Shown: one piece after another, positions 11,010 through 35,140 of the stretch
Layout of the letters: each line of letters begins with the position of its first letter
Position numbering within the stretch: position 1 is the first letter of the stretch
Origin: Anaerolineaceae bacterium
Lineage (GTDB): Bacteria > Chloroflexota > Anaerolineae > Anaerolineales > Villigracilaceae
Direction: 5' to 3'
NCBI GenBank assembly: GCA_009885945.1
Contig: VFJR01000138.1
Location: forward strand, 1 to 38,331
Length of the DNA: 38,331 nt
Notes under the pieces: model-generated
Database searches by the model: none
What the model saw: only the letters and a program-made list of their open reading frames with translations
Told to the model about the DNA's origin: nothing
Program-made: the position numbers and the translations under genes

Positions 11010-11678
11010 ATGCAATCATATGTGCTCTCCCTAAAAAAGCTTTACGAAAAAAATGCAAACCCTACTGCTGCTGTGCCTATGAAAAAGTACATGCGCGATC
11101 AATTTGATTTTCTAGGTATTAAAGCGCCTGAAAGTGATGCTTTGCTGAGAGAATTTGTTGGCTTGCAAGGATTGCCGCCTTTGCCTCTCCTTGATGAAAT
11201 ATCGCGTGAGTTATGGAGCCTGTCGCAGCGTGAGTTTCAGCATGTTGCCATCAATTTAATAATGAGACAGGAAAAGAAGTTAGAGTCAGATTTTATTTCT
11301 ACGCTGGAGCATTTGCTTATCACCAAATCGTGGTGGGACACCGTTGATATCATCGCGGGTCATCCTGTTGGAGCTCACTTCAAGCGCTTCCCTGAAGTTC
11401 GTGAGATATACCTGCAGAAATGGCGCAGTTCCGAAAATTTTTGGTTACGCCGTACTACTTTGCTTTTTCAGCTTGGCTATAAAAATGAAACCGATTTTGA
11501 TTTACTCTGTGAGTTAATTATGGAAAACCTTGGCTCAGATGAGTTCTTTATCAACAAGGCAATTGGCTGGGCGCTGCGCCAATACGCACACACCGACCCT
11601 AAGCCTGTCAAGAAGTTTGTAAACGCCACAAAAGAGTTGAATCCCTTAAGTCGCCGCGAGGCATTGAAGAATATGTAG
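11010..11678 (+). CDS. DNA alkylation repair protein, AlkD-like
   Basis: AlkD-type glycosylases remove bulky or positively charged alkylated bases using a HEAT-like helical solenoid without base flipping. The 222-residue protein shows the family signatures: WWDTVDIIAGHPVG near residues 109-122 (Trp and catalytic Asp), NFWLRRTTLLFQL near 139-151 (conserved Arg), and FFINKAIGWALRQYA near 180-194. The overall length fits the family. It stands alone with its own candidate promoter. Just after its stop lies an Rhs core relic on the opposite strand (11699-11849), so this gene's 3' side is a recombination border. Confidence 0.88.
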   Translation: MQSYVLSLKKLYEKNANPTAAVPMKKYMRDQFDFLGIKAPESDALLREFVGLQGLPPLPLLDEISRELWSLSQREFQHVAINLIMRQEKKLESDFISTLEHLLITKSWWDTVDIIAGHPVGAHFKRFPEVREIYLQKWRSSENFWLRRTTLLFQLGYKNETDFDLLCELIMENLGSDEFFINKAIGWALRQYAHTDPKPVKKFVNATKELNPLSRREALKNM

Positions 11679-11698: not shown

Positions 11699-11849
11699 CT
11701 ACCGATTCAACCCTTGAGTCATATCGGGGGTGATTGTATCAGGCTGAATAAACCTGCCCAGCGAGCTTGAGTAAAATCTTGCGCGATAATCCATCAAGCC
11801 AATACCAGAGTCTAGGTTTCTTTGTCCCGTGTAGTCAAGGTCTGTTTGG
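11699..11849 (-). pseudogene. Rhs core relic A, truncated at both ends
   Basis: On the minus strand the frame reads QTDLDYTGQRNLDSGIGL and continues through MDYRARFYSSSLGRFIQP to MTQGLNR, then hits TAG at once. This is the hallmark C-terminal end of the Rhs/YD-repeat core. It matches, nearly base for base by eye, the core segments at about 12930-13292, 26757-27005 and 28570-28864. The homology starts 2-3 bases after the stop of the small membrane protein gene and ends where the sequence should continue to YSYVNNNP. It has no start codon and no tip domain, so it is a scar rather than a gene. Confidence 0.8.
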
Positions 11850-11852
11850 AAG

Positions 11853-12170
11853 TTATCTAATTAAATTAATTATCAGTAAGAGTGCAATCGTCCAGGACGG
11901 AATTAATATTAATAATCCACGCATTACAGCAAGCCAGCCCTTCGAATGAAACGCTGGCGCTTCTTTTCTAATCACCCATGGCAATCCCATTGATCCCCAC
12001 AAGAATAAACACATTATAAAAAGTATTTGCTCGCTTGCAGCACCAGAGTATTTTCCATTTGTTAAAAATATTAATATACCAATAATTGGAAGACTTATTA
12101 ACATGGGCATGAAAGATAATACGTCTGTGTCCAAGCTTTGTACTTTTTTTATTATATTTTTGATTCGCAT
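11853..12170 (-). CDS. Small three-helix membrane protein, candidate immunity protein
   Basis: This 105-residue protein is not recognised. It has a basic N-terminus (MRIKNIIKKVQ) and three hydrophobic segments at about 19-37, 48-63 and 81-103. It lies 29 bases downstream of the Rhs-tip gene on the same strand and is followed immediately by a second Rhs core fragment. In Rhs and other polymorphic toxin loci the gene directly after the toxin tip normally encodes the cognate immunity protein. The position therefore suggests immunity to a membrane-acting tip. That role is inference from context alone, since the sequence shows no known immunity family. Confidence 0.6.
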   Translation of the reverse strand: MRIKNIIKKVQSLDTDVLSFMPMLISLPIIGILIFLTNGKYSGAASEQILFIMCLFLWGSMGLPWVIRKEAPAFHSKGWLAVMRGLLILIPSWTIALLLIINLIR

Positions 12171-12199: not shown

Positions 12200-13255
12200 T
12201 TAAGGATTAGAATACCTATGAATAATTGGAAAACCAATAGTTGAATTTAGATTACCAAAATTAGTTGTGAATACATGATTGGATGCCGTATAAACTGCAG
12301 CAATAAGCAAGACGTCAGCAGGCCCAAGCTCCAAGCCTGCAACAGCTGAAGCTCCAGATGCGTACACAGATATGAATGATGTAGCTATTCCTTCAATCGC
12401 CACAAGGTTTGCTCTTAGATGCATTTCTGTATCATTGTATTTTCCCTCATCAATAGATAACTGCGCTGCATAATCTGCGCTATATCCGAAAAATCCTGGA
12501 ATTTCTCCTCGGAAAAAGCGCATTGCATTCGCAAAAGAAATAAATTGCGACCAACCACTAAGTACATTTGCAGGTGTAACTGAAGTCCCCGATGAATTCT
12601 CAAATGCATTTCCGAAAGTTGAATGAAAACTGAAATTACATGGTTGAGTGCCTTGTAAAAGGAAATTACAAATATCTTCACCTGAGTATAAAGATAAGTC
12701 AAACGGATTTTTCTTGGGTGGACCAATTAGATTACATACAATTACATTTGTGCATCCTCCATCGCCATCATTTCCGTCTTCATTACCACTATTTTTATAA
12801 CTATTTTCATTACTATTTCTCCAAATAACAGAACTGCTCTGACTATTTGACAAGCCTCCATTGCAATCTTCTGCATTTTGGTTATCAATGAAATCGCAAT
12901 AAGCATGCCCGCTCGGATCATTAAAATTGACAGGATTATTATTGACATAGCTATACCGATTCAACCCTTGAGTCATATCGGGGGTAATTGTATCGGGCTG
13001 AATAAATCTGCCCAGCGAGCTTGAGTAAAATCTCGCGCGATAATCCATCAAGCCAATACCAGAGTCTAGGTTTCTTTGTCCACTTTGTCCAGTGTAGCCA
13101 AAATCCGTTTGGGGGATAGTGCCTATGTCGGTTCGAACTCCACCAGAGGGCAGGTATCTTTGCCGGGATATCATGCTTGCGTTATTATCAGTTATCGAAA
13201 CCATGGAGCCTAAATGGTCGGTTAAGAGGTATTTTAGCCCTGTGCCGTCATTCAT
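12200..13255 (-). CDS. Rhs core fragment with unique C-terminal domain (orphan toxin-tip candidate)
   Basis: Residues 1-115 are the end of an Rhs core: KYLLTDHLGSMVSITDNN, RQRYLPSGGVRT, GLMDYRARFYSSSLGRFIQP and YSYVNNNPVNFNDPSGH. After the NDPSGH border a unique region (about 116-351) begins. It is rich in Asn/Ser/Gly and Cys (DCNGG, GGCTNVIVC), then turns hydrophobic near the end (ATSFISVYASGASAVAG and DVLLIAAVY). I do not recognise that domain. The protein lacks the thousands of bases of YD repeats and the secretion signal of a full Rhs protein, so it looks like a displaced tip. Core homology continues upstream of the ATG to about 13292, where an in-frame TAA lies, so the ATG at 13255 may be fortuitous. 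A 9-base duplication adds GQS to the core. Confidence 0.65.
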   Translation of the reverse strand: MNDGTGLKYLLTDHLGSMVSITDNNASMISRQRYLPSGGVRTDIGTIPQTDFGYTGQSGQRNLDSGIGLMDYRARFYSSSLGRFIQPDTITPDMTQGLNRYSYVNNNPVNFNDPSGHAYCDFIDNQNAEDCNGGLSNSQSSSVIWRNSNENSYKNSGNEDGNDGDGGCTNVIVCNLIGPPKKNPFDLSLYSGEDICNFLLQGTQPCNFSFHSTFGNAFENSSGTSVTPANVLSGWSQFISFANAMRFFRGEIPGFFGYSADYAAQLSIDEGKYNDTEMHLRANLVAIEGIATSFISVYASGASAVAGLELGPADVLLIAAVYTASNHVFTTNFGNLNSTIGFPIIHRYSNP

Positions 13256-19556: not shown

Positions 19557-20567
19557 TTATCTACAGCCAACATAAGTGATCGCGGGAAGACATTGCTTTG
19601 TTGGGACGTCGGGGATTTTGATCGGCTGATCGAAATTGCATAATTGAACTTCATCGCCTTTCGGTTTAAAACCAACAGGCGCGCGGCAAGTATTATCCAC
19701 TGCGAAGATAGATTTAATGGGGTAGAACTTATTGTCATTGACAGATGAACCCGCTTGTCCTTCTGTGAAGATATCGTTGTAGCTAAATTTTGAAACATCG
19801 CGCAGTCCTGCATCTGCCCAGGCTTCCCACATAAACGCCTCGCCGATAGCAGATCGTTTTATAGCAAATTGCAATACAGTTGCTTTGGCAGGGTCAATTC
19901 TTGCCCATGCAAGATCAGGATCGTTTCCGCCAAGACCCCCATCAAATAGCAATGTATCAAAGCCATTTCCTGTAAAAGGCGCATCTGTTTGATTGGGTGA
20001 TTTGCCGCCCGAATCGTTATTGCTGTCTGCAAATATTTTTAAGTTTTCATTTTTCCATTCGGTTGTGAAGGTGGGGGCAGTCCAGATCAAATAATCTGTA
20101 TGACCGTCCAGGTCTATATCAATTTCAATGCCGTAATTTGCTTGCATGGAATTATTTGGGTTACTTCCGATCAATTCTACAAAGAAATAATGCCAATCAT
20201 TATCGCTGGTTAGGCGAAAATAAAGGATGTCTATATCTGGCAGATATTCCATGTTTGCCTGAGTGAAAGGACGCTCAAAGCGATTTAATTTATACGATTC
20301 TCCGTAGGGTGCGCGGTGTTCATTTGCGGTTTCTTTGGAGCTGACGTCGTAGAAAATATTCCCATCGGTTCTCGTATCTTTTGGAAAGTTAATATGGGTA
20401 ACAGGTTGAACAGTTGCAGTTATATCAGTTGGCGGAAGAGCCTGCTGGGCGGGCGATTCTGTCAATGTTTCTTCGCTTGTATCAGGGGATGCAAATGGGA
20501 GGCTGCACGCTAAAGCTGTGGTCAATAAAACGCTTAGGGTAAGTAGAGTTGGGTTATTCTTTTTCAT
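19557..20567 (-). CDS. Lipoprotein, paralogue of the Hint-domain lipoprotein upstream
   Basis: This 336-residue protein begins with a lipoprotein signal (LLTTALACSLPFA, lipid Cys at 21), then a Thr/Pro-rich linker. The main domain (about 65-310) shares a long series of motifs with the neighbouring gene: YKLNRFERPFTQ, YLPDIDI, ELIGSNPNN, an Asp-rich DIDLDGHTDY that resembles a calcium loop, NNDSGG, DPDLAWAR and IFAVDNTCR. It lacks a Hint domain and ends with two Cys residues. I do not recognise the family; a Ca-binding, secreted beta-rich domain is a guess. A terminator-like hairpin separates it from its paralogue, and AAAGGAG precedes the ATG. Confidence 0.75.
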   Translation of the reverse strand: MKKNNPTLLTLSVLLTTALACSLPFASPDTSEETLTESPAQQALPPTDITATVQPVTHINFPKDTRTDGNIFYDVSSKETANEHRAPYGESYKLNRFERPFTQANMEYLPDIDILYFRLTSDNDWHYFFVELIGSNPNNSMQANYGIEIDIDLDGHTDYLIWTAPTFTTEWKNENLKIFADSNNDSGGKSPNQTDAPFTGNGFDTLLFDGGLGGNDPDLAWARIDPAKATVLQFAIKRSAIGEAFMWEAWADAGLRDVSKFSYNDIFTEGQAGSSVNDNKFYPIKSIFAVDNTCRAPVGFKPKGDEVQLCNFDQPIKIPDVPTKQCLPAITYVGCR

Positions 20568-20585
20568 TTTGTACTCCTTTTAAGA

Positions 20586-20623
20586 AAGACAAGCAGAAAT
20601 CCAATTCGATCTCTGCTTGTCTT
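20586..20623 (-). terminator. Terminator between the two paralogous lipoprotein genes
   Basis: A 12-base stem (20586-20597 with 20612-20623) is followed on the minus strand by TTCTT. It lies just after the stop of the Hint-domain gene and could attenuate readthrough into its paralogue. Confidence 0.65.
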
Positions 20624-20627
20624 GATA

Positions 20628-22097
20628 CTATTTCAGAGTGCTTCCGATCAAAATCCCATTTGCCCAGTAGTACCCCGTTCCACCTTCTGGTAATATGTCG
20701 TATGTGCTGGCATGATCGTACGTGCTGATCTCAAGGCTGATGACTTCAGAACCATCCAAAATATCTCCTGGTTTCAGGTCGCCGATATTTTTGCCGTCAA
20801 CTGTTGGATGACCTGGTGATACCCAAAGCGTTCGCTGATCTGCAAGTGTTATATAAGCCATTTTGTGATTTGGTTCTACAAATGGGCTTGAAACTTTCAA
20901 GATAGGCGCAGCAATACGTTCGCCTGCTTGGTTGATCGTCCAAACCAAGTCACCAATTTTTAGAGTCTCAACTGAAATTGATCCGTTGGGGGTGTCAATT
21001 AAAGTTCCCTGAGATAAACATATTGCGCTTTGTTGTAAACACACACAATTCTCGGCGTCCCATACAGCGCAGGAAGATGGCTGTGGGCAGGCATTTGGAT
21101 TGCCCTCTGGTTTGATCTGCACCGGGCAACGCTGAGGTTCCTCGCCATGACCGACAAATCCATAAACATCGCGGCAGACGTTATCAACTGCAAAAAGAGC
21201 CTTGAGAGGATACTCTTTTTCTTCTCTTTCAGGCGAGCCCGCTTCTGATTCTGTTAAGCGATCCACATAATCTAATTTACCTACGTCTTTCAAGCCTGCA
21301 TCGGCATAGACGCCGTACATAAAGCGTGTTTCAGCCAGCTCAATCTTAAAGGCAAATTGTACGGTTGCGTATCTGCCGGCGTTGACGCGTACCCAGGCAA
21401 GATCTGGGTCATCTTTTTCACCGCGCCCGCCGTTAAAAATTAGGGTCTCATATCCGTCGCCTGGCAATGGAGCATCTGATCGCTCAGCAGACAAACCGCC
21501 AGTGTCACGATTCTTATCTTTAAATACCTGCACATTATCGGTAGTCCAATCTATTGAATAGAATGGATGGGCAACAATGGCGTAATCACCAAAGCCGTCG
21601 GCATTGGTATCCAGTTCAACAACATAATTAATGCCAAGGTCATTGTTGGGGTTCGTGCCGATCAGTTGTATGGCAACATAATAAAATTTTTCATCTTTGT
21701 CTAAGCTGTAGCTGGCAATATCAACATCTGGAAGATACGTCATGTCTTGCGAAAATGGACGTTCAAAGCGATTGATCTTATAGGAATCGCCATATGGTGC
21801 GCGCAGCTCTGCCGCAGTATCTACAGAAGTGACATCATACGTTAATTTACCAGTATTGATGTTTGTTGCAGGGATGAGGACATGCGCAATGGACGGTGTT
21901 GCGGTGGGCGGGGCAAATGTTGGCAATGCGTTTGCGACCCCACCTGCTGGCGCACTACTCGTAGATGCAGGGACATCTGTTAAGACAGGCAAAGGCGGCG
22001 GGGTAGTTTCAGCGGCGCTTGGCATTGTGCAAGATGATAGCGCGATGACAATCGTTAAGAATAAAGTCAGCAATGAGTGAGGGGTATTTTTTTTCAT
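20628..22097 (-). CDS. Lipoprotein with C-terminal Hint (Hedgehog/intein-type) domain
   Basis: The 489-residue protein starts with a lipoprotein signal (IVIALSSCTMPSA), then a Pro/Thr-rich linker, then the same domain as in the next gene (YKINRFERPF, ELDTNADGFGDY, DPDLAWVRV, FAVDNVCRD). After a Cys-rich hinge a Hint domain begins at Cys360 (CLSQGTLIDTPNGSI) and runs to the C-terminus. It keeps the block B His (WVSPGHPTVDG) and the YDILPEGGTGYYWANGIL block, but ends NGILIGSTLK instead of the HN of inteins. Splicing is therefore unlikely, while N-terminal Cys thioester cleavage remains possible. The ATG at 22097 has AGGAG upstream; a longer frame to 22202 is not used. It follows the PIG-L gene by 16 bases. 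Confidence 0.82.
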   Translation of the reverse strand: MKKNTPHSLLTLFLTIVIALSSCTMPSAAETTPPPLPVLTDVPASTSSAPAGGVANALPTFAPPTATPSIAHVLIPATNINTGKLTYDVTSVDTAAELRAPYGDSYKINRFERPFSQDMTYLPDVDIASYSLDKDEKFYYVAIQLIGTNPNNDLGINYVVELDTNADGFGDYAIVAHPFYSIDWTTDNVQVFKDKNRDTGGLSAERSDAPLPGDGYETLIFNGGRGEKDDPDLAWVRVNAGRYATVQFAFKIELAETRFMYGVYADAGLKDVGKLDYVDRLTESEAGSPEREEKEYPLKALFAVDNVCRDVYGFVGHGEEPQRCPVQIKPEGNPNACPQPSSCAVWDAENCVCLQQSAICLSQGTLIDTPNGSISVETLKIGDLVWTINQAGERIAAPILKVSSPFVEPNHKMAYITLADQRTLWVSPGHPTVDGKNIGDLKPGDILDGSEVISLEISTYDHASTYDILPEGGTGYYWANGILIGSTLK

Positions 22098-22113
22098 ATT
22101 TTCTCCTTGTTTA

Positions 22114-22848
22114 TTATTTGCTTTCGACTTTCCATAAGCGTACACCGTTATTTTCTGTACAGTATTTTTCAATAGATGAATGCATATGCTCAGTTGAATC
22201 AAACAGTGATGATATTTGAGAGGAATAAGCCCTAATCGCTTCTTTCCAAGCCTGTAAGCCGGATTCGGTTATCGAGTGAGCTTTTTCTTTCAACCCGGCG
22301 GTGTGCAAAGTCAGCGTATCAGGATGATTGAATAGATAGGGGATATCTGCCAAATAAAGCAGTGGAATGTTTAAACTTTCTGCCGCACGGCGCACCAGAA
22401 CATGATCAACGTGTGAACCAAGCCCAAATTGGCAGACCAACACATCGTCAGGCTTGAGGCGGGCTGTAATTGCTAGGGTGATTTGCGAGGATATTTCTTC
22501 ATCAAAGGCATGAGGCGGTGTAAAGACAGTATTGTATAGCCACGTGCCGTTTTGATCGTGTCGGTAAATACAATCTAAAAAATCAAAATAATAAGTTTTT
22601 GCGCCAAGTAGGGCGGCAGATTTTTCATTCTCAGCCCGCCGAAGATCTATGGTTTCCTTTGCAGTACCCGTTGCCCATTCCTTATGAAGAGCCTGTGCGA
22701 ATGAAGAAAGTCCATCGGTCGCGGGCGGATATCCGCACATGAATGTCCAAATCTCTACGGGGATGCCCGCCTGAGTTTGCTCATAAATTAGCCCGCCAAC
22801 AGATAAAGACGAATCATCTAGATGAGGGGATAAATATATATAACGCAT
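22114..22848 (-). CDS. PIG-L/LmbE-family deacetylase
   Basis: Zinc-dependent N-acetyl hydrolase of the LmbE family, which includes GlcNAc-PI, mycothiol and bacillithiol pathway enzymes. The 244-residue protein has the metal and catalytic motif SPHLDDSSLSVGG at residues 7-19 (usually PHPDDE; here HLDDS, so the last acidic residue is replaced by Ser) and the second histidine motif SHVDHVLVRRA near residue 140. No signal peptide is visible. It is the first gene of the leftward set with the two lipoprotein genes and is divergent from the PilZ operon. The substrate is unknown. Confidence 0.87.
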   Translation of the reverse strand: MRYIYLSPHLDDSSLSVGGLIYEQTQAGIPVEIWTFMCGYPPATDGLSSFAQALHKEWATGTAKETIDLRRAENEKSAALLGAKTYYFDFLDCIYRHDQNGTWLYNTVFTPPHAFDEEISSQITLAITARLKPDDVLVCQFGLGSHVDHVLVRRAAESLNIPLLYLADIPYLFNHPDTLTLHTAGLKEKAHSITESGLQAWKEAIRAYSSQISSLFDSTEHMHSSIEKYCTENNGVRLWKVESK

Positions 22849-22893
22849 TTTCTACTTTTACCACAAAAAGGTTGATTTTATCTTGAAGGTCTA

Positions 22894-22922
22894 TTACACT
22901 TATAGAAGTTTCTTGGTATAAA
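22894..22922 (+). promoter_or_regulatory. Candidate promoter of the PilZ operon
   Basis: TTACAC and TATAAA are separated by exactly 17 bases. The resulting leader of about 135 bases before the ATG at 23064 shows no clear riboswitch fold. The 215-base divergent gap holds nothing else I can support. Confidence 0.45.
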
Positions 22923-23063
22923 ATAGACATTATCTGAAATAATCTGGGACCCTGCATAATCTACGGATAAATAAGCGGCAAACTTTATTATAGATAGTCT
23001 AATAATTTATTTCAATTTGATGAAGTTTTTATGTATTTTTCTTTTTAAGCAGGAGGATGTCTT

Positions 23064-23453
23064 ATGGATGAGCGTCGAAAAGAAGATCGAAGAAGTATTA
23101 TGTCGTTTACGCCAGTGTACGATCTATATCAAGGTGTTTTATTGGGATACCTTGGCGATTTAAATTTATTGGGCGCAATGGTGATTGGCGAGAGACCGGC
23201 GGATGTTGACGGAAAAGCCACCCTTGCTATTGAATTGCCCGGTGATTTGCCGGAAATCACCGCTTCACGCATGACCATTCCTGCGCGTGTGGCATGGTGC
23301 AAACAGGATATTAGCCCGCAATATTTTAATATTGGTTTTGAATTTCATGATTTAAAACCCCACCACGAAAAAGTGATACATGCTATTTTAGAGCGTTATC
23401 AATTTCGCCGCGATAAAGATCAGAGTTCTCCACCGTTAATTCCAAATGAATAA
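23064..23453 (+). CDS. PilZ-domain protein
   Basis: A 129-residue stand-alone PilZ-like protein, probably a c-di-GMP sensor. The N-terminus has the Arg motif (DERRKEDRRSIM) and about 25 residues later the second motif is GDLNLLGAM, where the usual (D/N)xSxxG has Asn in the Ser position, so binding may be altered. The end of the beta-barrel is visible at YFNIGFEFHDLK. AGGAGG lies 8-9 bases before the ATG. Six bases separate its stop from acetolactate decarboxylase, so the two are co-transcribed. Confidence 0.8.
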   Translation: MDERRKEDRRSIMSFTPVYDLYQGVLLGYLGDLNLLGAMVIGERPADVDGKATLAIELPGDLPEITASRMTIPARVAWCKQDISPQYFNIGFEFHDLKPHHEKVIHAILERYQFRRDKDQSSPPLIPNE

Positions 23454-23459
23454 TTCTAT

Positions 23460-24179
23460 ATGTCTGTAGCCGGCAAGGATAGACCAGTTCTTTACCTTTG
23501 CGCGCCAATCAATGCTCTTGTAGAGGGAATCTACGAGCAAAAAATTCCCTTCACAGAAATAAAAAAACACGGCGATTTTGGTTTGGGGACATTCGACCAA
23601 CTGGACGGGGAGATGGTTATGTTGGATGGAAAAATATATCAGATCACTTCCGATGGCCATGTTGCCCAGATGGATGATTCTGCGTTAACTCCTTTTGCTT
23701 GCGTGACGTTTTATCGCCCGGCGGCGCATGATGAAATTAATACCCCGCTCAATTATGCTGAGTTTAATAAGTGGATCCAAAACCTCTTGCCATCGCCAAA
23801 TATATTTTATGCGATCAGGATAGATGGTGTTTTTTCTTATGTGCGCGTTCGTTCTGTGCCAAAGCAAGAAAGTTACAAGCCTTTAGTAGAAGTGGCGAAA
23901 GAGCAGCCTGTTTTCACCTTTGAAAATATTAAAGGGACATTGGTCGGTTTTTACACTCCAACCTTTATGGGTTCGGTGAGTGTGCCGGGTTTGCATTTAC
24001 ATTTTCTTTCCTCCGACTTGCAGCATGGCGGACATTTGTTGGAGTGCCAGACCAACGAAATTAAAGCAGGCATTCAATTTATTAGTTCTTTAGAGCTTGG
24101 TTTGCCAATGAATTTGGATTATTTAACCTGGGGCTTTCAGCGAAATGTGGGTGACGACCTAGACAAAGCGGAGAAATAA
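23460..24179 (+). CDS. budA: Alpha-acetolactate decarboxylase
   Basis: Decarboxylates acetolactate to acetoin, diverting pyruvate carbon into a neutral product. The 239-residue protein has the expected length. Zinc ligands are His179 and His181 in PGLHLHFLSSDLQHGGH and His192. The region GLGTFDQLDGEMVMLDGKIYQ and the block VFTFENIKGTLVGFYTPTFM are typical of the family. It lacks its own ribosome-binding site and starts 6 bases after the PilZ gene, so translation is probably coupled. Acetolactate synthase is not in the window. One base separates it from the methyltransferase gene downstream. Confidence 0.9.
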   Translation: MSVAGKDRPVLYLCAPINALVEGIYEQKIPFTEIKKHGDFGLGTFDQLDGEMVMLDGKIYQITSDGHVAQMDDSALTPFACVTFYRPAAHDEINTPLNYAEFNKWIQNLLPSPNIFYAIRIDGVFSYVRVRSVPKQESYKPLVEVAKEQPVFTFENIKGTLVGFYTPTFMGSVSVPGLHLHFLSSDLQHGGHLLECQTNEIKAGIQFISSLELGLPMNLDYLTWGFQRNVGDDLDKAEK

Positions 24180-24180
24180 G

Positions 24181-24960
24181 ATGGCTAGGTCTAAAGCTTT
24201 TTTTCGAAATGAAAAAATCACGATATTAAATGAAAATGTAATCACTACGACACTTGTTGAATCTGGCAGTGTTGATTTGATTGTTACCTCTCCGCCGTAC
24301 AATGTCGATCTTGAATATAACTCTCACAAAGATGATCTTTCTTACGCTGACTACCTTGAATTCACTAAGCAATGGATGGGGCGTTGTTATGAATGGTTAA
24401 AAGATGACGGTCGCTTTTGTTTAAATATCCCGTTGGATAAAACCAAAGGCGGACAGCAAAGCGTTGGCGCTGACTTAACCACTATTGCAAAACAAATTGG
24501 TTTCAACTATCACTCTACTGTAGTATGGAATGAAGGAAATATTTCACGGCGAACTGCATGGGGTTCATGGATGAGCGCGTCGGCTCCGTATGTGATTGCG
24601 CCTGTTGAATTGATCGTCATTCTTTATAAACACACCTGGAAAAAAACCAGCGGCAGTAAAATTTCTGACATTACCCGCGATGAGTTTTTGAATTGGACAA
24701 ATGGCGTTTGGACGTTTAATGGTGAGAGCAAGAAAAGAATTGGGCATCCTGCGCCGTTCCCGCTGGAGTTGCCGCGTCGTTGCATTAAGATGTTTAGTTA
24801 CGTGGGGGATGTAGTCTTAGACCCTTTTAGCGGAAGCGGAACAACCGTAATTGAAGCGGCGCTGAATCAGCGTAAAGGGATTGGGCTGGAGATTGATAAA
24901 AAATATTGCAAGTTATCTAAAGCAAGGATTTTGGATTTAGTTAAAAATATTGAGGAATAG
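24181..24960 (+). CDS. Site-specific DNA methyltransferase (SPPY type)
   Basis: S-adenosylmethionine-dependent DNA methyltransferase of the beta order: the catalytic motif IV TSPPYN comes first (about residues 38-43) and the SAM motif I VLDPFSGSGTT comes last (about 216-226). SPPY is usual in N4-cytosine enzymes, though N6-adenine enzymes with this form exist. At 259 residues it has only a short target-recognition region (roughly 85-190). No restriction endonuclease gene lies beside it, so it is an orphan methylase, perhaps regulatory. It begins one base after the acetolactate decarboxylase stop and is the last gene of the operon; glpD converges on it 17 bases later. Confidence 0.88.
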   Translation: MARSKAFFRNEKITILNENVITTTLVESGSVDLIVTSPPYNVDLEYNSHKDDLSYADYLEFTKQWMGRCYEWLKDDGRFCLNIPLDKTKGGQQSVGADLTTIAKQIGFNYHSTVVWNEGNISRRTAWGSWMSASAPYVIAPVELIVILYKHTWKKTSGSKISDITRDEFLNWTNGVWTFNGESKKRIGHPAPFPLELPRRCIKMFSYVGDVVLDPFSGSGTTVIEAALNQRKGIGLEIDKKYCKLSKARILDLVKNIEE

Positions 24961-24977
24961 TACGATCTAAAATCGTA

Positions 24978-26672
24978 TTAGAGCCTAACCCCGTGTTTGT
25001 CTTCTAGTAAGTGAATAGCCCTCGAAATCTCAGCGTTCTTTTGCTCGTCAGTCCAATCCAGCGCTTTGGCGGCTGCCTCCGCAATTTCGTTAATGATTTC
25101 TTTTGATAAATTACCGAGCACAGCCAGCATGCTGCGGCGCAAAAGAATATCATCCAAGCGGCACACTTTTTCGTGTTGGGCGAGGAACATAATCTCACGC
25201 GCGGTGTAAGTTGGTATGGATTTTAACGGTTGGTCTGGACTGCGGTGAATAAAGGTGGCGATTGTCTCCGCACGGGTTCCATATCTCTCAAACAGAATTG
25301 CCAATCTTTCTTTGCTCATGCCTGTCCAGGCTGAAAGACCATCTAGCTGTATTTTTAGTTCATCTTCATTTTTCGGGTAGCCGCGTCCGCCGCCAATTGG
25401 AAGATCGCGGGTGGACTTTGTGCGTTCTTTGCCTAGAAAAGCAATAACTTTATCTGTAACTTGTTCGCTAAAGGCGCGCTGAGATGTCCATTTGCCGCCA
25501 ACCAGTGAATAGACAGGAAAATTTAAATTGGTCCAATTTCCGCTGATGACTTCTATGCTGTGGTCGCGGGAGATTTGCCCGGCGGAGGCTGCGTGTACGG
25601 CGCGGGGTAGGGGACGAACGCCTGAGATGCGATAGACAATATGGGCAGGATCAACTTTGATGCTGGGGAAGACGCGTTGAATCATGTTCAGAAAATATTC
25701 CGCTTCTTCATCAGTGCAGCGGGCTTCATCTGCGTTATCAATTGGAATATCGGAAGTGCCCACCATTACTTTATCAAATAATGGGAAGATCAATACGATG
25801 CGTCCATCTTCATTTTCAAAAAAGAATTCATGCTCGCCGATGGCGGCGCGTAATTCTGGATGATCTAAAATAAGGTGCGAACCTTTTGTGCCGCCAATAG
25901 AACGGGTGGAGATGCCGAGTTTGTGATTTGTGCGATCGATCCATGCGCCTGTAGCGTTGATCAGTAATGTTGGACGCACGTCATAGGTCTCGTCGGTTAA
26001 TTCGTCGCGCAGAATGATTGTGTTTTCGCCGCCCGCGATCATGCTGGTGTAATTCAATGAACGTGCATTTAAATTTTCTGTTTCAGAATCGAGTAATAAT
26101 TCGAGCGCGAGCCGTTCAGGATTTAATATTGCACCATCGTAATAAGTTGCTGTGTTTACAATTTTGGGATTAAGTTGTTTCCATTTTGAAAGTGATTCTG
26201 TGCGCGATGTGAATTGATGCGTTGGAACTGCGCCTTGCCTGCCTGTATATGCGTCATACATTATTAATCCGAGTTTTATAATGAATGACCCGCGCTCAGA
26301 TGGTTTCGTTAACATGCCAAAGAATTTGAGAGGCGCATTTAAAATGCCCGATAATCTTTTAAATATAGGAATGGTGGTTGCTAGTGGCTTAACCAAATGC
26401 GGTGCGTTTTTAATAAGACGATTGCGTTCTTGCACAGCTTCACGTACCAGTCGAAACTCGCCGTTTTCAAGATAGCGTATGCCCCCATGCGCCATGTGAG
26501 ATGATGCCGCGCTAGCGCCTGAACAAAAATCTGCGCGGTCTACAAGATATACATCCACGCCATTAAGCGCCAGATCGCGGTAGGTTGCTATGCCGTTAAT
26601 TCCTGCCCCAACAATTAATACAGAAACTTCTGGGTTATTCTTGATGTGATTGAATATGTCTTGACGGTTCAT
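24978..26672 (-). CDS. glpD: Glycerol-3-phosphate dehydrogenase (FAD-dependent)
   Basis: Oxidises glycerol 3-phosphate to dihydroxyacetone phosphate at the membrane and passes electrons to quinone. The 564-residue protein has the FAD motif VLIVGAGINGIATYRDLALNG at residues 18-38, the signature GASAASSHMAHGGIRYLENGEF and a C-terminal helical domain (about 400-564) typical of GlpD. The promoter candidate at 26723-26751 abuts an Rhs relic. No glpK or glpF lies in the window. The ATG at 26672 has only a weak ribosome-binding site. Confidence 0.93.
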   Translation of the reverse strand: MNRQDIFNHIKNNPEVSVLIVGAGINGIATYRDLALNGVDVYLVDRADFCSGASAASSHMAHGGIRYLENGEFRLVREAVQERNRLIKNAPHLVKPLATTIPIFKRLSGILNAPLKFFGMLTKPSERGSFIIKLGLIMYDAYTGRQGAVPTHQFTSRTESLSKWKQLNPKIVNTATYYDGAILNPERLALELLLDSETENLNARSLNYTSMIAGGENTIILRDELTDETYDVRPTLLINATGAWIDRTNHKLGISTRSIGGTKGSHLILDHPELRAAIGEHEFFFENEDGRIVLIFPLFDKVMVGTSDIPIDNADEARCTDEEAEYFLNMIQRVFPSIKVDPAHIVYRISGVRPLPRAVHAASAGQISRDHSIEVISGNWTNLNFPVYSLVGGKWTSQRAFSEQVTDKVIAFLGKERTKSTRDLPIGGGRGYPKNEDELKIQLDGLSAWTGMSKERLAILFERYGTRAETIATFIHRSPDQPLKSIPTYTAREIMFLAQHEKVCRLDDILLRRSMLAVLGNLSKEIINEIAEAAAKALDWTDEQKNAEISRAIHLLEDKHGVRL

Positions 26673-26722
26673 AGTTTATGATTCCCAATCAAATGTGCGG
26701 GTAACAACTTTCTTCCACCCTG

Positions 26723-26751
26723 AGTATAACTTCTTTCGAACAATGATTCAA
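26723..26751 (-). promoter_or_regulatory. Candidate glpD promoter
   Basis: On the minus strand TTGAAT and TATACT are separated by 17 bases, about 50 bases before the glpD ATG. The -35 box overlaps the stop codon of Rhs core relic C (TGA at 26748-26750). Confidence 0.55.
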
Positions 26752-27041
26752 TTTTTAGTCATATCGGGGGTAATTGTATCAGGCTGAATAAACCTGCCTA
26801 GCGAGCTTGAATAAAATCTGGCGCGATAGTCCATCAAGCCAATACCAGAGTCTAGGTTTCTTTGTCCTGTGTAGCCCAAGTCCGTTTGGGGGATGATTCC
26901 TATGTTGGTGCGAACTCCGCCAAAAGGGAGGTATCTCTGCTGGGAGATTATGCTTCCGATATTATCTGTTATCGAAACCATAGAGCCGAGGTGATTGCCA
27001 AGCTGGTGACTGAGCTTGTCAAAATTTGAATTAGATGCCAA
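26748..27041 (-). pseudogene. Rhs core relic C, short open frame without tip
   Basis: This 97-codon frame reads HLGSMVSITDN, QQRYLPFGGVRTNIG, GLMDYRARFYSSSLGRFIQP and DTITPDMTKN, then stops. It is an Rhs core fragment of roughly 80 residues with no C-terminal domain; homology to the other copies begins near 27005 and ends at 26757. The first 14 codons are unrelated sequence, and the frame overlaps the last 11 bases of the CPBP gene. It could be expressed as a small peptide, but I treat it as a recombination scar. Together with copy D it brackets the CPBP gene and the second tip gene. Confidence 0.7.
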
Positions 27042-27843
27042 GAATTACTCTTGCGACTATTGGGAACATAAAATTTATTAATGAATGTGAAATAATAGAT
27101 GGAAAAACTTGTTTAGAATTTTTAGTTAATTGCGAAAACAATATTGCAGACAATGAGATACTAATCAGCCATGTAATTGGCGTTATGTTTTGCCATCCAT
27201 GCATAAACCAAAATAAAACCCCTTGAATGTAAACTGTTCTCTTCTCAGAAATCCCCATTTCTATCAACGCTCCCCACAGAAGGCTTCTAAAAATAATTTC
27301 TTCAACAGGAGCCACAATTGAAATTTCATAAAAAACATTTCTCAAGTAATAAACTGTCAGGTTATTAATATGCAATTGGTTTAAATCTGGGATTAGGGCT
27401 TTGTCAAAGCTAACATACTGGAGAAATGAAAATGGGATAACGATTGAAGAAGATAATATTCCAATGAAAGCCCAGCGCCAGTTTATGTTTGCAATATGTT
27501 TCCAATTTGCTAAACTAACTGCCAGTAAAATCATCCCGAGCAAAAAGCAAATATTTCTATAATATTCTTCATACGGGAAATGCAACCAGATGCGTATAAA
27601 CCCAACCAAAGCGAGTAGAATGATCGTGCCTTTATCAATATTGTATATTTTAATTTTCTGAGGTTCAAAATAAACAAGAACAATTAAAGATAAATATACC
27701 CCAATTATTTGCAAGTATGTAGTAATTGGGTCGACATTTGATTCAAGAAAACCAAATGCAAACAAAGGAGGCGACAACACATTTACAAGAAGCAAAGATG
27801 TAATTATCGCAAGCAGGGCTAGAGAACCAATATTTTTATTCAT
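27031..27843 (-). CDS. CPBP (Abi) family membrane protease, candidate immunity protein
   Basis: The 270-residue protein has about seven to eight membrane helices. It carries all three motifs of the CPBP/CaaX protease family: EExxxR in VAPVEEIIFRSLLW (about 181-194), FxxxH in LFWFMHGWQN (about 210-219) and HxxxN in SHSLINFMF (about 252-260). Family members process prenylated or other membrane proteins; several in lactic acid bacteria are bacteriocin self-immunity proteins. Here it sits directly downstream of an Rhs-tip gene (gap 73 bases) and upstream of a second Rhs core relic. By position it is the candidate immunity gene for the tip; that role is inferred. A weak ribosome-binding site (AAAAAGATG) precedes the ATG. 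Confidence 0.82.
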   Translation of the reverse strand: MNKNIGSLALLAIITSLLLVNVLSPPLFAFGFLESNVDPITTYLQIIGVYLSLIVLVYFEPQKIKIYNIDKGTIILLALVGFIRIWLHFPYEEYYRNICFLLGMILLAVSLANWKHIANINWRWAFIGILSSSIVIPFSFLQYVSFDKALIPDLNQLHINNLTVYYLRNVFYEISIVAPVEEIIFRSLLWGALIEMGISEKRTVYIQGVLFWFMHGWQNITPITWLISISLSAILFSQLTKNSKQVFPSIISHSLINFMFPIVARVILGI

Positions 27844-27916
27844 ATCATCTTTTTAGGTATAAGAAAATTATTAAGAGTAATGGGTTTTAACATTATGATT
27901 TGCGGAATAATAGTAA

Positions 27917-28762
27917 CTATGGTTGGGGAGTCGATATATATGTAGGAGTAAACATAAACATTGTTGCAGTAGGACTAGGGGTGGTTATTTGAAATGACGG
28001 GATGGCAGATGGAGTTGGGGGATACCCATTAAAAGGTTGAGGAAACGGGGTCTGGGAATTATTGTAATCTCTAATTTGATCCGATATCCCAAATCCTGCT
28101 TTCAAAATAGTTAGCCCTATGTTGATAGTAATAGAAATCTCCACAAACGCGATGCATAATGGTTTAAGTCCGCAGGCACCGGCGTTTCTCATTTCAGCAT
28201 CGAAACTTGGCGCAAAAGGTTCTTGATTGCGTGCGGCGTCCTCAATAATTTCCCCAGCAGATTTTGCTACAGATAAAGGAGATGGAAATGTAGGCCTTGG
28301 CGTGGGTGTTGAGGTCGTGGTTGGTCCTTGTTCGTACATTGCCCACGATCCTGCCGGGGTTGCAGTAGCTCCTGCTATTAACAATGGCGACCCAGGCGTG
28401 GGCAGGGCGGTGAGAAAAGGTGCTAAGATCGGATTATGTAAAGGCTTGGTAGATGCATGAGGGCGGTGATTTCGAACAGGGCTATATTCATAAGCTCTGC
28501 CATAATCTCTTGCATGGATATCTGTCGTTATCCTATTCCCTTCCATGCAATTCCCATCCTCATCACAGCGGGCGTGACCACTCGGATCATTAAAATTAAT
28601 CGGATTATTATTGACATAGCTATACCGATTCAACCCTTGAGTCATATCGGGGGTAATTGTATCAGGCTGAATAAATCTGCCCAGTGAGCTTGAATAGAAT
28701 CGGGCGCGATAGTCCATCAAGCCAATGCCAGAGTCTAGGTTTCGTTGTCCCGTGTAGCCCAA
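27917..28762 (-). CDS. Rhs core fragment with unique Pro/Thr-rich C-terminal domain
   Basis: Residues 1-55 are the last part of the Rhs core (MGYTGQRNLDSG, MDYRARFYSSSLGRFIQP, YSYVNNNPINFNDPSGHA). The unique part (about 56-281) is unrelated to that of the 12200-13255 gene. It has a hydrophobic stretch near residues 200-230 (CIAFVEISITINIGLTILK), two Pro/Thr-rich low-complexity segments (TTTSTPTPRPTFP and PSPTATMFMFTP) and ends PTYISTPQP. I do not recognise a toxin fold. The frame starts with TTG inside core sequence, and an in-frame TGA at 28838-28840 blocks translation from the upstream core, so expression as drawn is doubtful. It is followed by the CPBP gene on the same strand. Confidence 0.5.
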   Translation of the reverse strand: MGYTGQRNLDSGIGLMDYRARFYSSSLGRFIQPDTITPDMTQGLNRYSYVNNNPINFNDPSGHARCDEDGNCMEGNRITTDIHARDYGRAYEYSPVRNHRPHASTKPLHNPILAPFLTALPTPGSPLLIAGATATPAGSWAMYEQGPTTTSTPTPRPTFPSPLSVAKSAGEIIEDAARNQEPFAPSFDAEMRNAGACGLKPLCIAFVEISITINIGLTILKAGFGISDQIRDYNNSQTPFPQPFNGYPPTPSAIPSFQITTPSPTATMFMFTPTYISTPQP

Positions 28763-28864
28763 GTCCGTTTGGGGGATGATTCCTATATTGGTGCGAACTC
28801 CGCCAAAGGGCAGGTATCTCTGCTGGGAGATTATGCTTCAGTTATTATCTGTTATCGAAACCAT
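28570..28864 (-). repeat. Rhs core repeat, copy D (with an in-frame stop)
   Basis: Core homology on the minus strand runs from ATGGTTTCGATAAC at 28864 to NDPSGH near 28570. At 28838-28840 a TGA replaces the Ala or Gly codon seen in copies B and C. The upper end merges with the 3' end of the globin gene. Confidence 0.75.
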
Positions 28865-29252
28865 CAGCGCGGTTACGTAAAAAATCTGCGGCTTCTGCGA
28901 GGCGTGCTTTTAAATGTTCAACCACGCTTGGAGGATATTGACCTTCGTCCAGCGCCTTATTCATACACCATAACCATTGGTCACGTTCGAGTATCCCGAT
29001 CGAAAAAGGCATGTGGCGTTGGCGTAAACGCGGATGCCCATATTTTTCTATATAGAGCTGAGGTCCGCCAGACCAGCCAGAGAGAAACATAAATAATTTT
29101 TCACGTGATTGACTCAAGCTTTGTGCATGTAAGGCGCGCAGTTCTTTTGCTTCTGGCGCAGAATCCATGATGTCGTAAAAATTGTCTACCAGGGCACGCA
29201 AGTGCGCTTCGCCGCCAATCAGGTCGTAAAGGGAAATTAAATTTTCTGCCAT
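28845..29252 (-). CDS. Truncated haemoglobin (group II-like) with altered C-terminus
   Basis: A 2-on-2 haem globin of 135 residues, thought to bind oxygen or handle NO and peroxide. Conserved points include Tyr in NFYDIMD (B10 position), the proximal His in RQRHMPFSI (F8) and Trp in WLWCMNKAL (G8), plus the GGPQLYIEKYGHPRLR segment typical of group II. The last codons read LRNRADGFDNR; the GFDNR end and the TAA stop are encoded by Rhs core DNA in another frame (copy D starts at 28864). So the native C-terminus was replaced, probably by only a few residues beyond the last helix, and function may survive. The gene is divergent from thiolase. Confidence 0.87.
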   Translation of the reverse strand: MAENLISLYDLIGGEAHLRALVDNFYDIMDSAPEAKELRALHAQSLSQSREKLFMFLSGWSGGPQLYIEKYGHPRLRQRHMPFSIGILERDQWLWCMNKALDEGQYPPSVVEHLKARLAEAADFLRNRADGFDNR

Positions 29253-32044: not shown

Positions 32045-35000
32045 TTAATTGCAGGTGTTTAAATTAGCATTCCAACTGCAGCCTGCCGAACTACAACTAG
32101 GTTGGTTAACATACGATCCACAGCTAGGAGCACTTCCTCCGCTGTTGCCGCTATTATCTTTCACCTCGCAAAAAGGCGCACTGAAATTAAACTCCACTGT
32201 GGAAAGAACTTTTCCATTTTCCACATATATATTTTTGAAATCGCAGGCACCGGTTGAAGGATCAAAAGCCTGTCCTTCCGGACAGCCGGGATAACGCCCG
32301 CTCGGAAGGTCTGTCAAACTGCATTGCGAGGCTTCATCAAAATGAAAGCCTGTCAAAGTAAAGCTGGTAGGCTCACCAGATGCAATGCACAGCCCTTCTT
32401 TTTTATCGAAATAGGTACCAACTGGGCAGCCTAAGACAACATCCGGTAGACAAACCCCAAGCGTTTCGCTATACCAGTATCCGGGCATACATCTTGAATT
32501 TGGACTGGGAGGTGGCTCGCTGGGAAGACAACGACCATTTATCAAGATTGAGCCAAGCCGACAGATTCCATTTTGTCCGGGGGAGGGGTATCCTAGAACC
32601 GGATCATAATTGCCATAGTAATATCTGCGACTAGGTACACGAAAAACTGATCTGCCACTTGAATCTCTGCCCCAGTAGCCTGATATTGGAGACCATTCGA
32701 CTGACCCGTCACTACCTTCGGTTTCAGAACTGCTTGTAGTGTCAGTGTCACTACGTGAAATACACGTGTTGCAATCAGATTCAGAAAGGTCCATTCCTTG
32801 AGCCTCACATGATTCTTGGGACTGAATACAGAAAGAATAAACATTAATTAGGATTAGGGGTGTGATCTGACTATCTTCGTTTGGAATACAACGGTCAAAA
32901 TAATTGCTTGATCCCTCCGGACAGGTACCATCGTCGTTTGCCCTCGGATAGCCTGTTATTGGATTCCATTGCCAAAGCCCGAAATCTGGTGACCCTCCAT
33001 CTTCTTCGCTGGGAGGTGGCTCGTTTGGAATACAACTGCCAAAATAATTAATTGATCCTTCCAGACAAGCCCCTTCAGCATTTACGTGCGGATAGCCGGC
33101 TAATGGATTCCAAGGCCCGAGCTCGATGTTTAGTTGCCCCGCCTCATCTTCGCTGGGAGCCGGCTCGTTTGGTACGCAATATAAGCCATAATACAAGGTC
33201 GATCCTTCTGGACACAGCCCCTCTGCGTTGGGTCGTGGATAGCCCCTGAAAGCATTCCAGGAGGGCTGCTGAAGGTCCCCATTTTCGTCCACAACCCATC
33301 TATCGTTGAGAATACATTCGCCAGCAAACAATAATGTTCCTTCCGGGCAAGTCCCATCTGCATTAAGCGGTAATGTTCTATATGCTGGATCGTCAGCGGG
33401 TGTTATGCCCACTGGGACTCGCCAATCTGCGTCGGGGATACAATACAACCCATTCAACAAGCTTGATCCTTCCGGACAAGTTCCATCTGCGTTGGGCGGC
33501 GGATAGCCTGTTATTGGATTCCATGCAGGTAACCCTTCTGTGTTTCTGCCGGCTCTTGCTAGATCTCCAACCGGAATGTCAAATACACATCTTCCAAGCC
33601 TCTCGCTAAAAGTTAATGGGGCTGGACAGGTTTGCTGTTGATTAGCACTCCGCAATGGATTAGGCTGATAAACAGCAAGGCTGACCTGACCTGCAAATTG
33701 GGACTCGCTACTTTGCAGTTGTGCGACGGCAGGCGCGGAATCGTTATGCACGGCAGGCAATAATTTGTTGAAGTCACATTGGGTCGGCGAATCCTGATTG
33801 ACTTCATAGCCGGGCAGGCATTGCAATTCCCCAGCGGCAGGCAAACCATTGACCTGTACTGCCGGCAATAGATCATGTTGAATGAAGACCTCGCCTTGAC
33901 CGTTCGGCGCTGACGAGTTGGAGCACAGGATTCGATTATTATCCACCAGCTGGCAACCTCCAGTTACAGATTGAAGTATTCCACCTGCAGGGATATTGAT
34001 ATCCAACGTAACGTAGCCTACACCCTTTTGGCAGAATTCGCCGGCCTTTGTCATACTATAATCCATAACGGTAGGTGCCCCGTTTACATAATATGCGCTG
34101 GTTTGGCAGGCGGGTGCCATCGGAGCCGGCGCATCCACGACACAGCGAATAGTCTGTCCTATCGCATCAACTATAGCCGGTGGTATGCTAACTGAATTTG
34201 GGGCATCTTCAAGGCATGGACAATAATGTCGAGCCCTGGGACTACTCTCATCAAGACGACCATATGAATCATAAGAGCTAATTCTCTCCACACATTGAGC
34301 ATCCCGGTGAATACCTTCAGAACAACCATTAGGCAGCGGGGGGGGAAGTTCTCCAGAAGGTCGACTTTGTGTGAAACCGCCTAATGGGGGGGCTTCTGCC
34401 TCGGTGGGCACACGTCCGCCGGCCCAGACGCAATATTGCAGCTGATTGTCAGGTCCGATACCCTGTGCGGGTAAGTGGGCTTTCGATGGATTATTAAAAT
34501 CAGCGGTGAGAGAATCAACGATCGATGGCTGACAACTGCCGGCCTCGACACATAGCGAGAATTGATAATTGGTCACTTCGGATTGATAGATCCAAACGCC
34601 TTCGTAAAAAACCAATGTACTGCCGTCCACCCAGAGCATGAGTGTACCTTCAGCCGGGCCGGCAGGTTCTGCCATTGGCGGCACGGTCGGAGTCGGTTCT
34701 GGAGCGATTAATACAAATTTAATAAAAACTGCGCCAATGATAACCAGAACCAGAATAACGCCAAAGATAAGTGGCACAAAAAATCCTCTTCTGCTTGTCC
34801 GCCGCATACGTCTGGCAAGGATTCTCCGATCTCTTGCTTCCCTCATTGCCCTTCTTCTTTCTCTGATTGCAGCTCTCCAAGCTTCTCGGGCTGCAGCACG
34901 TTCCGCTATAGCTTCCGCCCTCTGCCTGGCTCTTGCTTCTCTTAGCGCCCTTCTCCTAAGCCGGGTCGCGTCCAGCTCCTCCAGCATATCTTTCATGTCT

Positions 35001-35140
35001 CGCCGGCTGTCGCTGCTCAATAACATCATCATCAATATAACAGCATCTTCTACGGACATTGTTGAAAAATCAATAGTCATGCCCGCATTATTCGGGTGAT
35101 TATTTATCAAATTCTTGACAATACCTTGGATAATATTCAT
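32045..35140 (-). CDS. Large membrane-anchored Cys-rich repeat protein with partial FGE-sulfatase-like domain
   Basis: A 1031-residue protein, not recognised as a whole. Residues 45-118 are an Arg/Ala/Glu-rich, helix-forming region (ARARQRAEAIAERAAAREA) before one membrane helix (about 119-145), so the long C-terminal part should be outside the cell. Residues about 180-249 resemble the start of the formylglycine-generating-enzyme domain (EVTNYQFSLCVEAGSC, CVWAGGRVPTEAE), but the remainder and its active Cys residues are absent. From about 540 to 880 come six repeats of the form GYPxPNAxGxCPEGSxxxxGxCIP. More Cys pairs follow to the end. Disulfide-stabilised surface repeats are likely. Start may be 35140 or the ATG at 35080; neither has a strong ribosome-binding site. 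Confidence 0.65.
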   Translation of the reverse strand: MNIIQGIVKNLINNHPNNAGMTIDFSTMSVEDAVILMMMLLSSDSRRDMKDMLEELDATRLRRRALREARARQRAEAIAERAAAREAWRAAIRERRRAMREARDRRILARRMRRTSRRGFFVPLIFGVILVLVIIGAVFIKFVLIAPEPTPTVPPMAEPAGPAEGTLMLWVDGSTLVFYEGVWIYQSEVTNYQFSLCVEAGSCQPSIVDSLTADFNNPSKAHLPAQGIGPDNQLQYCVWAGGRVPTEAEAPPLGGFTQSRPSGELPPPLPNGCSEGIHRDAQCVERISSYDSYGRLDESSPRARHYCPCLEDAPNSVSIPPAIVDAIGQTIRCVVDAPAPMAPACQTSAYYVNGAPTVMDYSMTKAGEFCQKGVGYVTLDINIPAGGILQSVTGGCQLVDNNRILCSNSSAPNGQGEVFIQHDLLPAVQVNGLPAAGELQCLPGYEVNQDSPTQCDFNKLLPAVHNDSAPAVAQLQSSESQFAGQVSLAVYQPNPLRSANQQQTCPAPLTFSERLGRCVFDIPVGDLARAGRNTEGLPAWNPITGYPPPNADGTCPEGSSLLNGLYCIPDADWRVPVGITPADDPAYRTLPLNADGTCPEGTLLFAGECILNDRWVVDENGDLQQPSWNAFRGYPRPNAEGLCPEGSTLYYGLYCVPNEPAPSEDEAGQLNIELGPWNPLAGYPHVNAEGACLEGSINYFGSCIPNEPPPSEEDGGSPDFGLWQWNPITGYPRANDDGTCPEGSSNYFDRCIPNEDSQITPLILINVYSFCIQSQESCEAQGMDLSESDCNTCISRSDTDTTSSSETEGSDGSVEWSPISGYWGRDSSGRSVFRVPSRRYYYGNYDPVLGYPSPGQNGICRLGSILINGRCLPSEPPPSPNSRCMPGYWYSETLGVCLPDVVLGCPVGTYFDKKEGLCIASGEPTSFTLTGFHFDEASQCSLTDLPSGRYPGCPEGQAFDPSTGACDFKNIYVENGKVLSTVEFNFSAPFCEVKDNSGNSGGSAPSCGSYVNQPSCSSAGCSWNANLNTCN
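32505..33525 (-). repeat. Six Cys-rich coding repeats
   Basis: Units of the type NADGTCPEGSSLLNGLYCIP recur at about 33430-33525, 33306-33375, 33160-33260, 33010-33110, 32870-32960 and 32500-32600. Some DNA blocks between units, such as CGCTGGGAGGTGGCTCG, are repeated almost exactly, pointing to recent unit duplication. Confidence 0.65.

Follow-up and report, generated by a model that had tools for sequence, protein, structure and literature searches.

It is probable that a CPBP-family (PF02517) intramembrane protease, encoded directly behind an Rhs C-terminal tip in the genome of an Anaerolineaceae bacterium, is the immunity factor of that tip, which itself probably acts on membranes. The pair lies in cassette II of a contig of 38,331 nucleotides (nt; NCBI GenBank assembly GCA_009885945.1, contig VFJR01000138.1). 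This contig was analysed as a whole and is referred to here as the window (C195); it belongs to an assembly of 3.43 Mb in 209 contigs that is 95.7% complete. The pairing is supported by its recurrence, by its association with one type of tip and by solitary copies of the CPBP gene, all within one Anaerolineales family, and immunity is the reading that probably accounts best for these sequence data.

On the minus strand, read from 5' to 3', cassette II consists of a partial Rhs core, the tip, the CPBP gene and a second partial core (Table 1); the coordinates and profile scores thereby confirm the layout proposed in the first-pass annotation of this DNA. The two core copies, which are 94% identical over 228 nt, score 66.5 and 42.1 bits against TIGR03696 (curated cut-off 32.5), and the CPBP protein, P0002, scores 40.6 bits against PF02517 (cut-off 22.4). 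The G+C content of the CPBP gene is 0.33, as compared with 0.44 for the whole window. P0002 was also said to keep all three family motifs, and these are indeed present as E181-E182-xxx-R186 (EExxxR), F211xxxH215 (FxxxH) and H253xxxN257 (HxxxN), the last of which we take to be the third motif of the family. The first two are named as CPBP motifs in PMC9298176. Across 11 aligned CPBPs, all of which match PF02517 at E 0.001, the residues E182, R186, F211, H215, H253 and N257 are invariant, which suggests that the catalytic activity has been kept and points to cleavage, binding alone also being possible. No relative of the CPBP profile is found among solved structures at E 0.1, the AlphaFold model of the protein is poor, with a predicted local distance difference test score (pLDDT) of 44.2 from an input alignment of only two rows, and PADLOC gives no match for the five proteins submitted.

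The recurrence of the pair was assessed by searching P0002 against 152 genomes of the family of the source organism (E 0.01), which yields 32 matches in 26 genomes, 10 of the matches being in Rhs context. In eight clear pairs (the window and the loci L097, L098, L101, L108, L110, L114 and L120) the CPBP gene is directly behind the tip and on the same strand. The tips of L097, L098 and L101 are carried on long Rhs frames, open for 2049 to 2908 residues, and the pairs of L108, L110, L114 and L120 occur in orphan or contig-cut modules. In L099 the CPBP gene lies between degenerate Rhs core starts (DHLG segments, 4587-6161), a remnant of the core, CPBP, core plan; in the partial case L124 a core is found behind the CPBP gene and the contig ends before it. 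When the matches are ranked by E-value, Rhs context is seen for four of the best six, including the window, with the degenerate L099 as one of the four. Beyond the unbiased cases, three clear and both partial ones were obtained by the searches based on CPBP.

The frequency of the pairing was counted from the side of the Rhs core, using as modules most of the listed matches of a core search in 72 genomes. Removal of matches ending before profile position 95 and of duplicates reduces the 208 core matches to 187, of which 182 reach a stop and 174, having at least 600 nt behind them, form the complete set for counting next genes. When the modules of L099, L114 and L120, which had been fetched for their CPBP genes, are removed, an unbiased set of 163 modules (from 93 loci, three of which are other modules of the source genome) is obtained, or 162 without the index case. 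Among the matches listed, a CPBP gene is directly behind the tip in 7 of the 174 complete modules; an L114 module with another module before the CPBP gene is left uncounted, and L108, with a core truncated by the end of the contig, is outside this set. CPBP is the next gene in 4 of the 162 unbiased modules, again among the matches listed, as compared with 0.3-0.4 expected (P 3e-4 to 7e-4, values that serve as a guide and overstate independence because some modules are related to each other), and three of these four pairs are on long Rhs frames. The expectation is calculated from 1020 PF02517 matches in the 152 genomes at E 1e-5, a mean of 6.7, assuming 2800-3500 genes per genome. CPBP genes are common enough for them to be considered as mere cargo of variable regions that comes to lie beside Rhs tips by chance, but this is very improbable, given the excess over expectation, the direct same-strand adjacency and the single tip type shared by all four unbiased pairs. 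The recurrence looked for in the first-pass annotation is thus found above the chance level; the distant genomes in which it had been sought are, however, distant only inside one family.

The tip type concerned is rich in proline and threonine (P/T), and a P/T tail was defined as at least 35% Pro plus Thr in the last 40 residues. Such tips are rare, accounting for 10 of the 174 tips in the full set and 8 of the 162 in the unbiased one. In the unbiased set CPBP is the next gene for four of the eight P/T-tailed tips and for none of the 154 others (p 2.5e-6), and in the full set for 6 of 10 versus 1 of 164, namely L120. Membrane proteins with at least three segments follow 9 of 10 P/T-tailed tips versus 33 of 164 others (unbiased set: 7 of 8 versus 31 of 154), which is as expected if these tips act on membranes. 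A hydrophobic segment above a simple threshold is present in four of the seven CPBP-paired tips scored, and the L101 tip terminates in a hydrophobic stretch. The window CPBP gene, being directly behind the tip and recurring with that type of tip, is in the position of an Rhs immunity gene. The other P/T-tailed tips (L142, L187, L193 and L197) are followed by proteins of 102-133 residues with 2-3 hydrophobic segments. These tips are of another kind and constitute a second candidate class of membrane-acting tip and immunity protein.

The CPBPs and the tips can be grouped in a partly matching way. Identity to the L097 CPBP is 38% for the window CPBP and 46% for that of L098, and a second CPBP group is formed by L101, L110 and L114 (39% and 51% identity to L101). 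The same division of the tips is assigned partly by eye. The tips of L097 and L098 are related (phmmer, 6.6e-20), as are those of L110 and L114 (2.5e-12), and in pairwise local alignments the window tip resembles those of L097 (z 5.0) and L098 (z 5.2), none of 200 shuffles that preserve local composition reaching the score. The same shuffle test gives z 4.5 for the window tip and the L110 tip; for the L101 tip, whose place in the second group is taken from the shuffles alone, it gives z 5.4 to L110 but 7.3 to L097. In a tree of 22 CPBPs, seven of the nine Rhs-linked rows are in one group of 10 together with three solitary rows (93/90), and the CPBPs of L108 and L120 fall outside it on long branches, their place being unsure. 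The Rhs-linkage label requires five changes on this tree (shuffle mean 7.2, with 33 of 500 shuffles as low), so that the clustering, taken alone, is weak; the starred branches force at least three label changes, and consequently one gain without losses fails to explain the Rhs linkage. The mean G+C deficit relative to the locus is 0.13 for nine Rhs-linked CPBPs versus 0.05 for ten other CPBPs (p 0.008). Outside the family, the two CPBP clades are found neither in 400 genomes of the phylum (E 1e-20) nor in 400 genomes of the order (E 1e-25), both drawn evenly.

Solitary copies of the CPBP gene, with no Rhs sequence, follow one and the same kinase gene in three genomes, a clade A CPBP in G127 and clade B CPBPs in G136 and G137. 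The frames of these copies are open and start within 81 nt behind the kinase gene; L117 and L118 are each split over two contigs. A kinase search in that genus gives matches in 49 of 57 genomes, and in the 30 loci fetched a CPBP gene follows the kinase only in G136 and G137 (four of these loci, in which fewer than 650 nt follow the kinase and no CPBP gene is seen, carry little weight). G127 was read from a separate locus, which brings the kinase sites with a CPBP gene to three. Although G127 and G137 have kinases that are 94% identical, their CPBPs belong to different clades. Judged from this context, a toxin-free site at which one CPBP lineage replaces another resembles the situation of orphan immunity genes. 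Further solitary CPBPs are found elsewhere (L100 and L102).

It is generally considered that a conserved DPxG motif marks the point behind which Rhs tips are released, and that Rhs immunity proteins are binders. The cores of the modules studied here end in DPSGH or DPTGH, and the tip of a complete Rhs protein would be cut free behind this DP(S/T)G motif. The freed tip, acting as the toxin, would be delivered to a neighbouring cell and enter its membrane via the hydrophobic segment, and kin making the CPBP protein would be protected, the CPBP protein binding or cleaving the tip within the membrane. The partial core of a module such as cassette II would provide the homology by which the module could recombine onto a complete rhs gene. 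The main rival to immunity is processing, in which the CPBP protein, like SagE or the Mrt family, would mature the tip by cutting the P/T-rich tail or the hydrophobic segment for export from the producer. This is unlikely, although several observations are in its favour: 10 of the 11 CPBPs match MrtJ (NF033192) and 5 match MrtS (NF040589) at E 0.001, both of which are proteases that process C-terminal sorting signals; a P/T-rich tail is an unusual feature of the tips, and the end of the L101 tip is hydrophobic; in S. anginosus SilX is required for bacteriocin production but not for immunity, and a role in the processing of SagA has been proposed for SagE (PMC9298176). However, the MrtJ match of P0002, at 30.1 bits, is below the curated cut-off of 75, and behind P/T-tailed tips that lack a CPBP partner the slot is taken by other small membrane proteins. 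The CPBP-paired tips that were examined end without a hydrophobic stretch followed by basic residues, which is a feature of sorting signals. The solitary CPBPs of both clades also speak against processing, because a processing protease would have no substrate at the kinase site.

Several observations weigh against immunity, or against a membrane-acting tip. The majority of the P0002 matches (22 of 32) are without an Rhs core in the stretches read, and the best-scoring CPBP after that of the window, L096 (39% identity), has no Rhs nearby. The pairs span four genera (g1, g8, g17 and g24) of one family, a narrow range. Two of the eight clear pairs lack the P/T tail (L120, and L108, whose tip is P/T-rich), the tips of L097, L114 and L120 have no hydrophobic segment above the threshold, and the first motif glutamate is replaced by Gln in L108, alone among the 11 aligned CPBPs. 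The window tip has no Pfam match, and its AlphaFold model, made from a two-row alignment, has a pLDDT of 39.6 and no confident fold. In phmmer comparisons between tips it is not linked to the tips of L097 or L098, its only match being a second tip from the source genome. Peptide processing is a role of related CPBPs elsewhere, as described in PMC9298176 and as the Mrt profile matches indicate, and according to PMC3578759 less than 1% of Abi proteins are encoded in putative bacteriocin loci or small-toxin operons.

In the source genome cassette II is probably a silent, orphan (dissociated) Rhs module, as suggested by the in-frame TAA that interrupts its 5' core and by the lack of an evident start codon in that core; the first listed start after the TAA is a TTG within the core at 28762. 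It shows the features of an orphan rhs tip, namely a partial core in frame with the tip, a small gene next to it on the same strand and no evident start. Neither cassette holds a whole rhs gene, a full-length rhs gene is not found in the assembly, and the search for PF05593 YD repeats gives nothing above the cut-off of 22 (best 13.7 bits). As core copies are present and YD repeats above the cut-off are not, the modules are considered to be orphans in this genome; an intact rhs gene may nevertheless be missing from the assembly because contigs break in the core, four of them starting in core copies. It is possible, if rather doubtful, that the module is a decaying remnant, both genes being idle in this organism and the pair being of importance only elsewhere; this is compatible with immunity as applied to the relatives. 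The stopped core, its cutting at varying points from copy to copy and the missing rhs gene agree with decay. On the other hand, the CPBP frame is unbroken and keeps its motifs, and the tip frame is open over 215 residues, as is expected of silent modules kept for recombination, and the contig breaks just mentioned could account for the missing rhs genes.

The module is in many respects like the dissociated rhs tips described by Jackson et al. (2009; PMC2935791), which also have a partial core of varying length and an intact tip, mostly no start and in some cases premature stops, a cargo of lower G+C content, and arrays behind an rhs gene (here seen in relatives). In that paper only one of three dissociated tips has a start site, and they are termed likely silent. 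The present modules differ in lying dispersed between unrelated genes, in an assembly in which no intact rhs gene is found, and in having a CPBP gene in the immunity slot. Tse5, for which tip cleavage is shown and whose immunity protein is Tsi5, is a precedent for a pore-forming Rhs tip (PMC10684867); the likeness is that of a tip freed behind the core and inserted in the target membrane, as would be the case here. Unlike Tse5, the window tip is P/T-flanked and has a CPBP partner, and no part of a type VI secretion system is seen in the cassette. CPBP (Abi) proteins of bacteriocin loci are described as acting in immunity, in processing or as receptors (PMC9298176), and self-immunity is suggested for the CAAX protease of a bacteriocin cluster (PMC4462113). 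The self-immunity proteins of such loci (PMC9298176, PMC3578759) share with P0002 the PF02517 domain, the motifs and a gene beside a presumed membrane-acting toxin, and differ in that their partner is a small bacteriocin peptide instead of an Rhs tip; the present lineage is Chloroflexota. MrtJ and MrtS share profile similarity in the CPBP core, but P0002 is under the curated MrtJ cut-off and its tip is without a visible sorting-signal tail. Kjos et al. (2010) are said to have described the CPBP (Abi) self-immunity proteins of bacteriocin loci.

No proposal of a CPBP protein as an Rhs immunity protein was found in the accessible parts of the open-access literature, a scope that leaves most subscription journals outside. 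CPBP is named as distantly related to PrsW by Zhang et al. (2012; PMC3482391), and a 2026 survey (PMC13129497) lists four CPBPs among the 'miscellaneous' proteins of type VI secretion loci in Morganella, with no immunity role given in the text available. If the immunity reading is correct, intramembrane proteases would be an added enzyme family among Rhs immunity proteins, and a tip class, P/T-flanked and hydrophobic, would be defined with a testable membrane target. It would also give a function to Chloroflexota CPBP genes otherwise annotated just as 'CPBP family protease', and a clean test case of CPBP protection versus processing. A wider proposal can be made tentatively, with the balance somewhat against it: that there is a group of Anaerolineales Rhs toxins in which P/T-flanked, membrane-active tips are countered by intramembrane glutamic proteases, with repeated recruitment of CPBPs and with solitary copies at a chromosomal site where the lineages are swapped.

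Cassette I of the window has the same plan with unrelated cargo, as had been noted before: the two tips are not found to be similar, and a protein of 105 residues takes the place of the CPBP protein. The two cassettes had also been described as having the same borders, which holds for the kind of sequence, a homologous core, and not for the end points, which differ from copy to copy in both cassettes and elsewhere in the genome. In the source genome a DNA search with the core gives 15 matches, four of them at contig starts, and the TIGR03696 profile gives 10 core copies, all above the cut-off. The core, cargo, core fragment plan is seen at four sites (cassettes I and II, C64 and C178, the first core of C178 being cut by the contig start). 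This repetition, together with the junction at which cassette II substitutes the stop codon of the globin-like gene, could suggest a dedicated mobile element with core sequences of ~230 nt as direct terminal repeats, which is highly unlikely. Both core ends vary between copies, the Pfam matches of the scanned cassette proteins include no integrase or transposase, and orphan modules of the same plan stand behind long rhs frames in relatives. A precise mobile element with terminal core repeats is rejected because of the variable ends. A core search of named genomes gives 31 loci (best identity 74%), of which 24 are titled Anaerolineales, Anaerolineae or Chloroflexi and the remaining ones are from other metagenome-assembled genomes and three actinomycetes.

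Table 1. Features of the two Rhs cassettes of the window and of their surroundings, and solitary CPBP genes of related genomes.
Feature	Position	Strand	Remarks
5' Rhs core copy, cassette II	28565..28864	-	partial TIGR03696; in-frame TAA 28838-28840; own start codon not evident
Rhs C-terminal tip, cassette II	27917..28564	-	215 residues, frame 28564-27920, stop 27919-27917; P/T-rich, one hydrophobic segment, P/T-rich tail
CPBP (PF02517) intramembrane protease gene, candidate immunity gene	27031..27843	-	270 residues, G+C 0.33
3' Rhs core copy, truncated, cassette II	26754..26984	-	its open reading frame extends to 26748
Globin-like gene (by eye)	28845..29252	-	cassette II core supplies its final five codons and stop: cassette/chromosome junction
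5' Rhs core copy, cassette I	12896..13255	-	
Tip, cassette I	12200..12895	-	no similarity to cassette II tip found
Gene of 105-residue protein in immunity position, cassette I	11853..12170	-	three hydrophobic segments
3' core fragment, cassette I	11700..11849	-	
Gene abutting cassette I	11010..11678	+	homologue directly adjoins globin-like gene in two relatives
Solitary CPBP genes	L096 5026-5835 (G127); L117 4899-5567, L118 4910-5578 (G136, G137)		

The two cassettes flank a block of 17.2 kb (window 11679-28844) that separates genes which are adjacent in two relatives (L290 and L291). The names globin, thiolase, hisS, glpD and uridine kinase were assigned by eye. The 5' end of the cassette II core lies at the expected stop of the globin gene, which in three of four relatives ends with ADFMRNQ and two residues, the window gene running into five core codons and a stop. 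The homologue of the gene that abuts cassette I is 20-30 nt from the globin gene in G030 and G007, and a thiolase gene lies beyond them, as it does in the window; in G018 the two are ~1 kb apart, in G001 each is present as a fragment and the fragments are together beside the thiolase gene, and in G024 the homologue is absent within 1.5 kb. It is possible that the block results from a rearrangement at the Rhs core repeats, or that the contig is chimeric; a false join is the less likely as the longest exact stretch common to the window core copies is 62 nt. The paper of Jackson et al. (2009; PMC2935791) states that there was no published report of chromosomal rearrangement through rhs elements. 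A circle-insertion model of the 17-kb block was rejected, as the adjacency that it predicts between 13329 (hisS) and 24978-26672 (glpD) is seen in none of 29 hisS loci, each read for at most 1.5 kb on each side.

Further modules of the same genome show other cargo. In L023 (1400-2003) a HepT-like gene (PF01934, 1.5e-28) is between the tip and the core fragment and is preceded by a nucleotidyltransferase-like frame, recognized by eye. Lipoprotein-like frames, also recognized by eye and similar to each other, are found at L020 1439-1978 and L025 148-729, where they separate a tip from a core fragment or adjoin such a fragment. A scan of promoters and terminators is uninformative, with 13 promoter-like sites versus 7.7 expected. 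An open reading frame of 1031 residues at window 32045-35140 contains direct repeats of ~144 nt (32877-33524).

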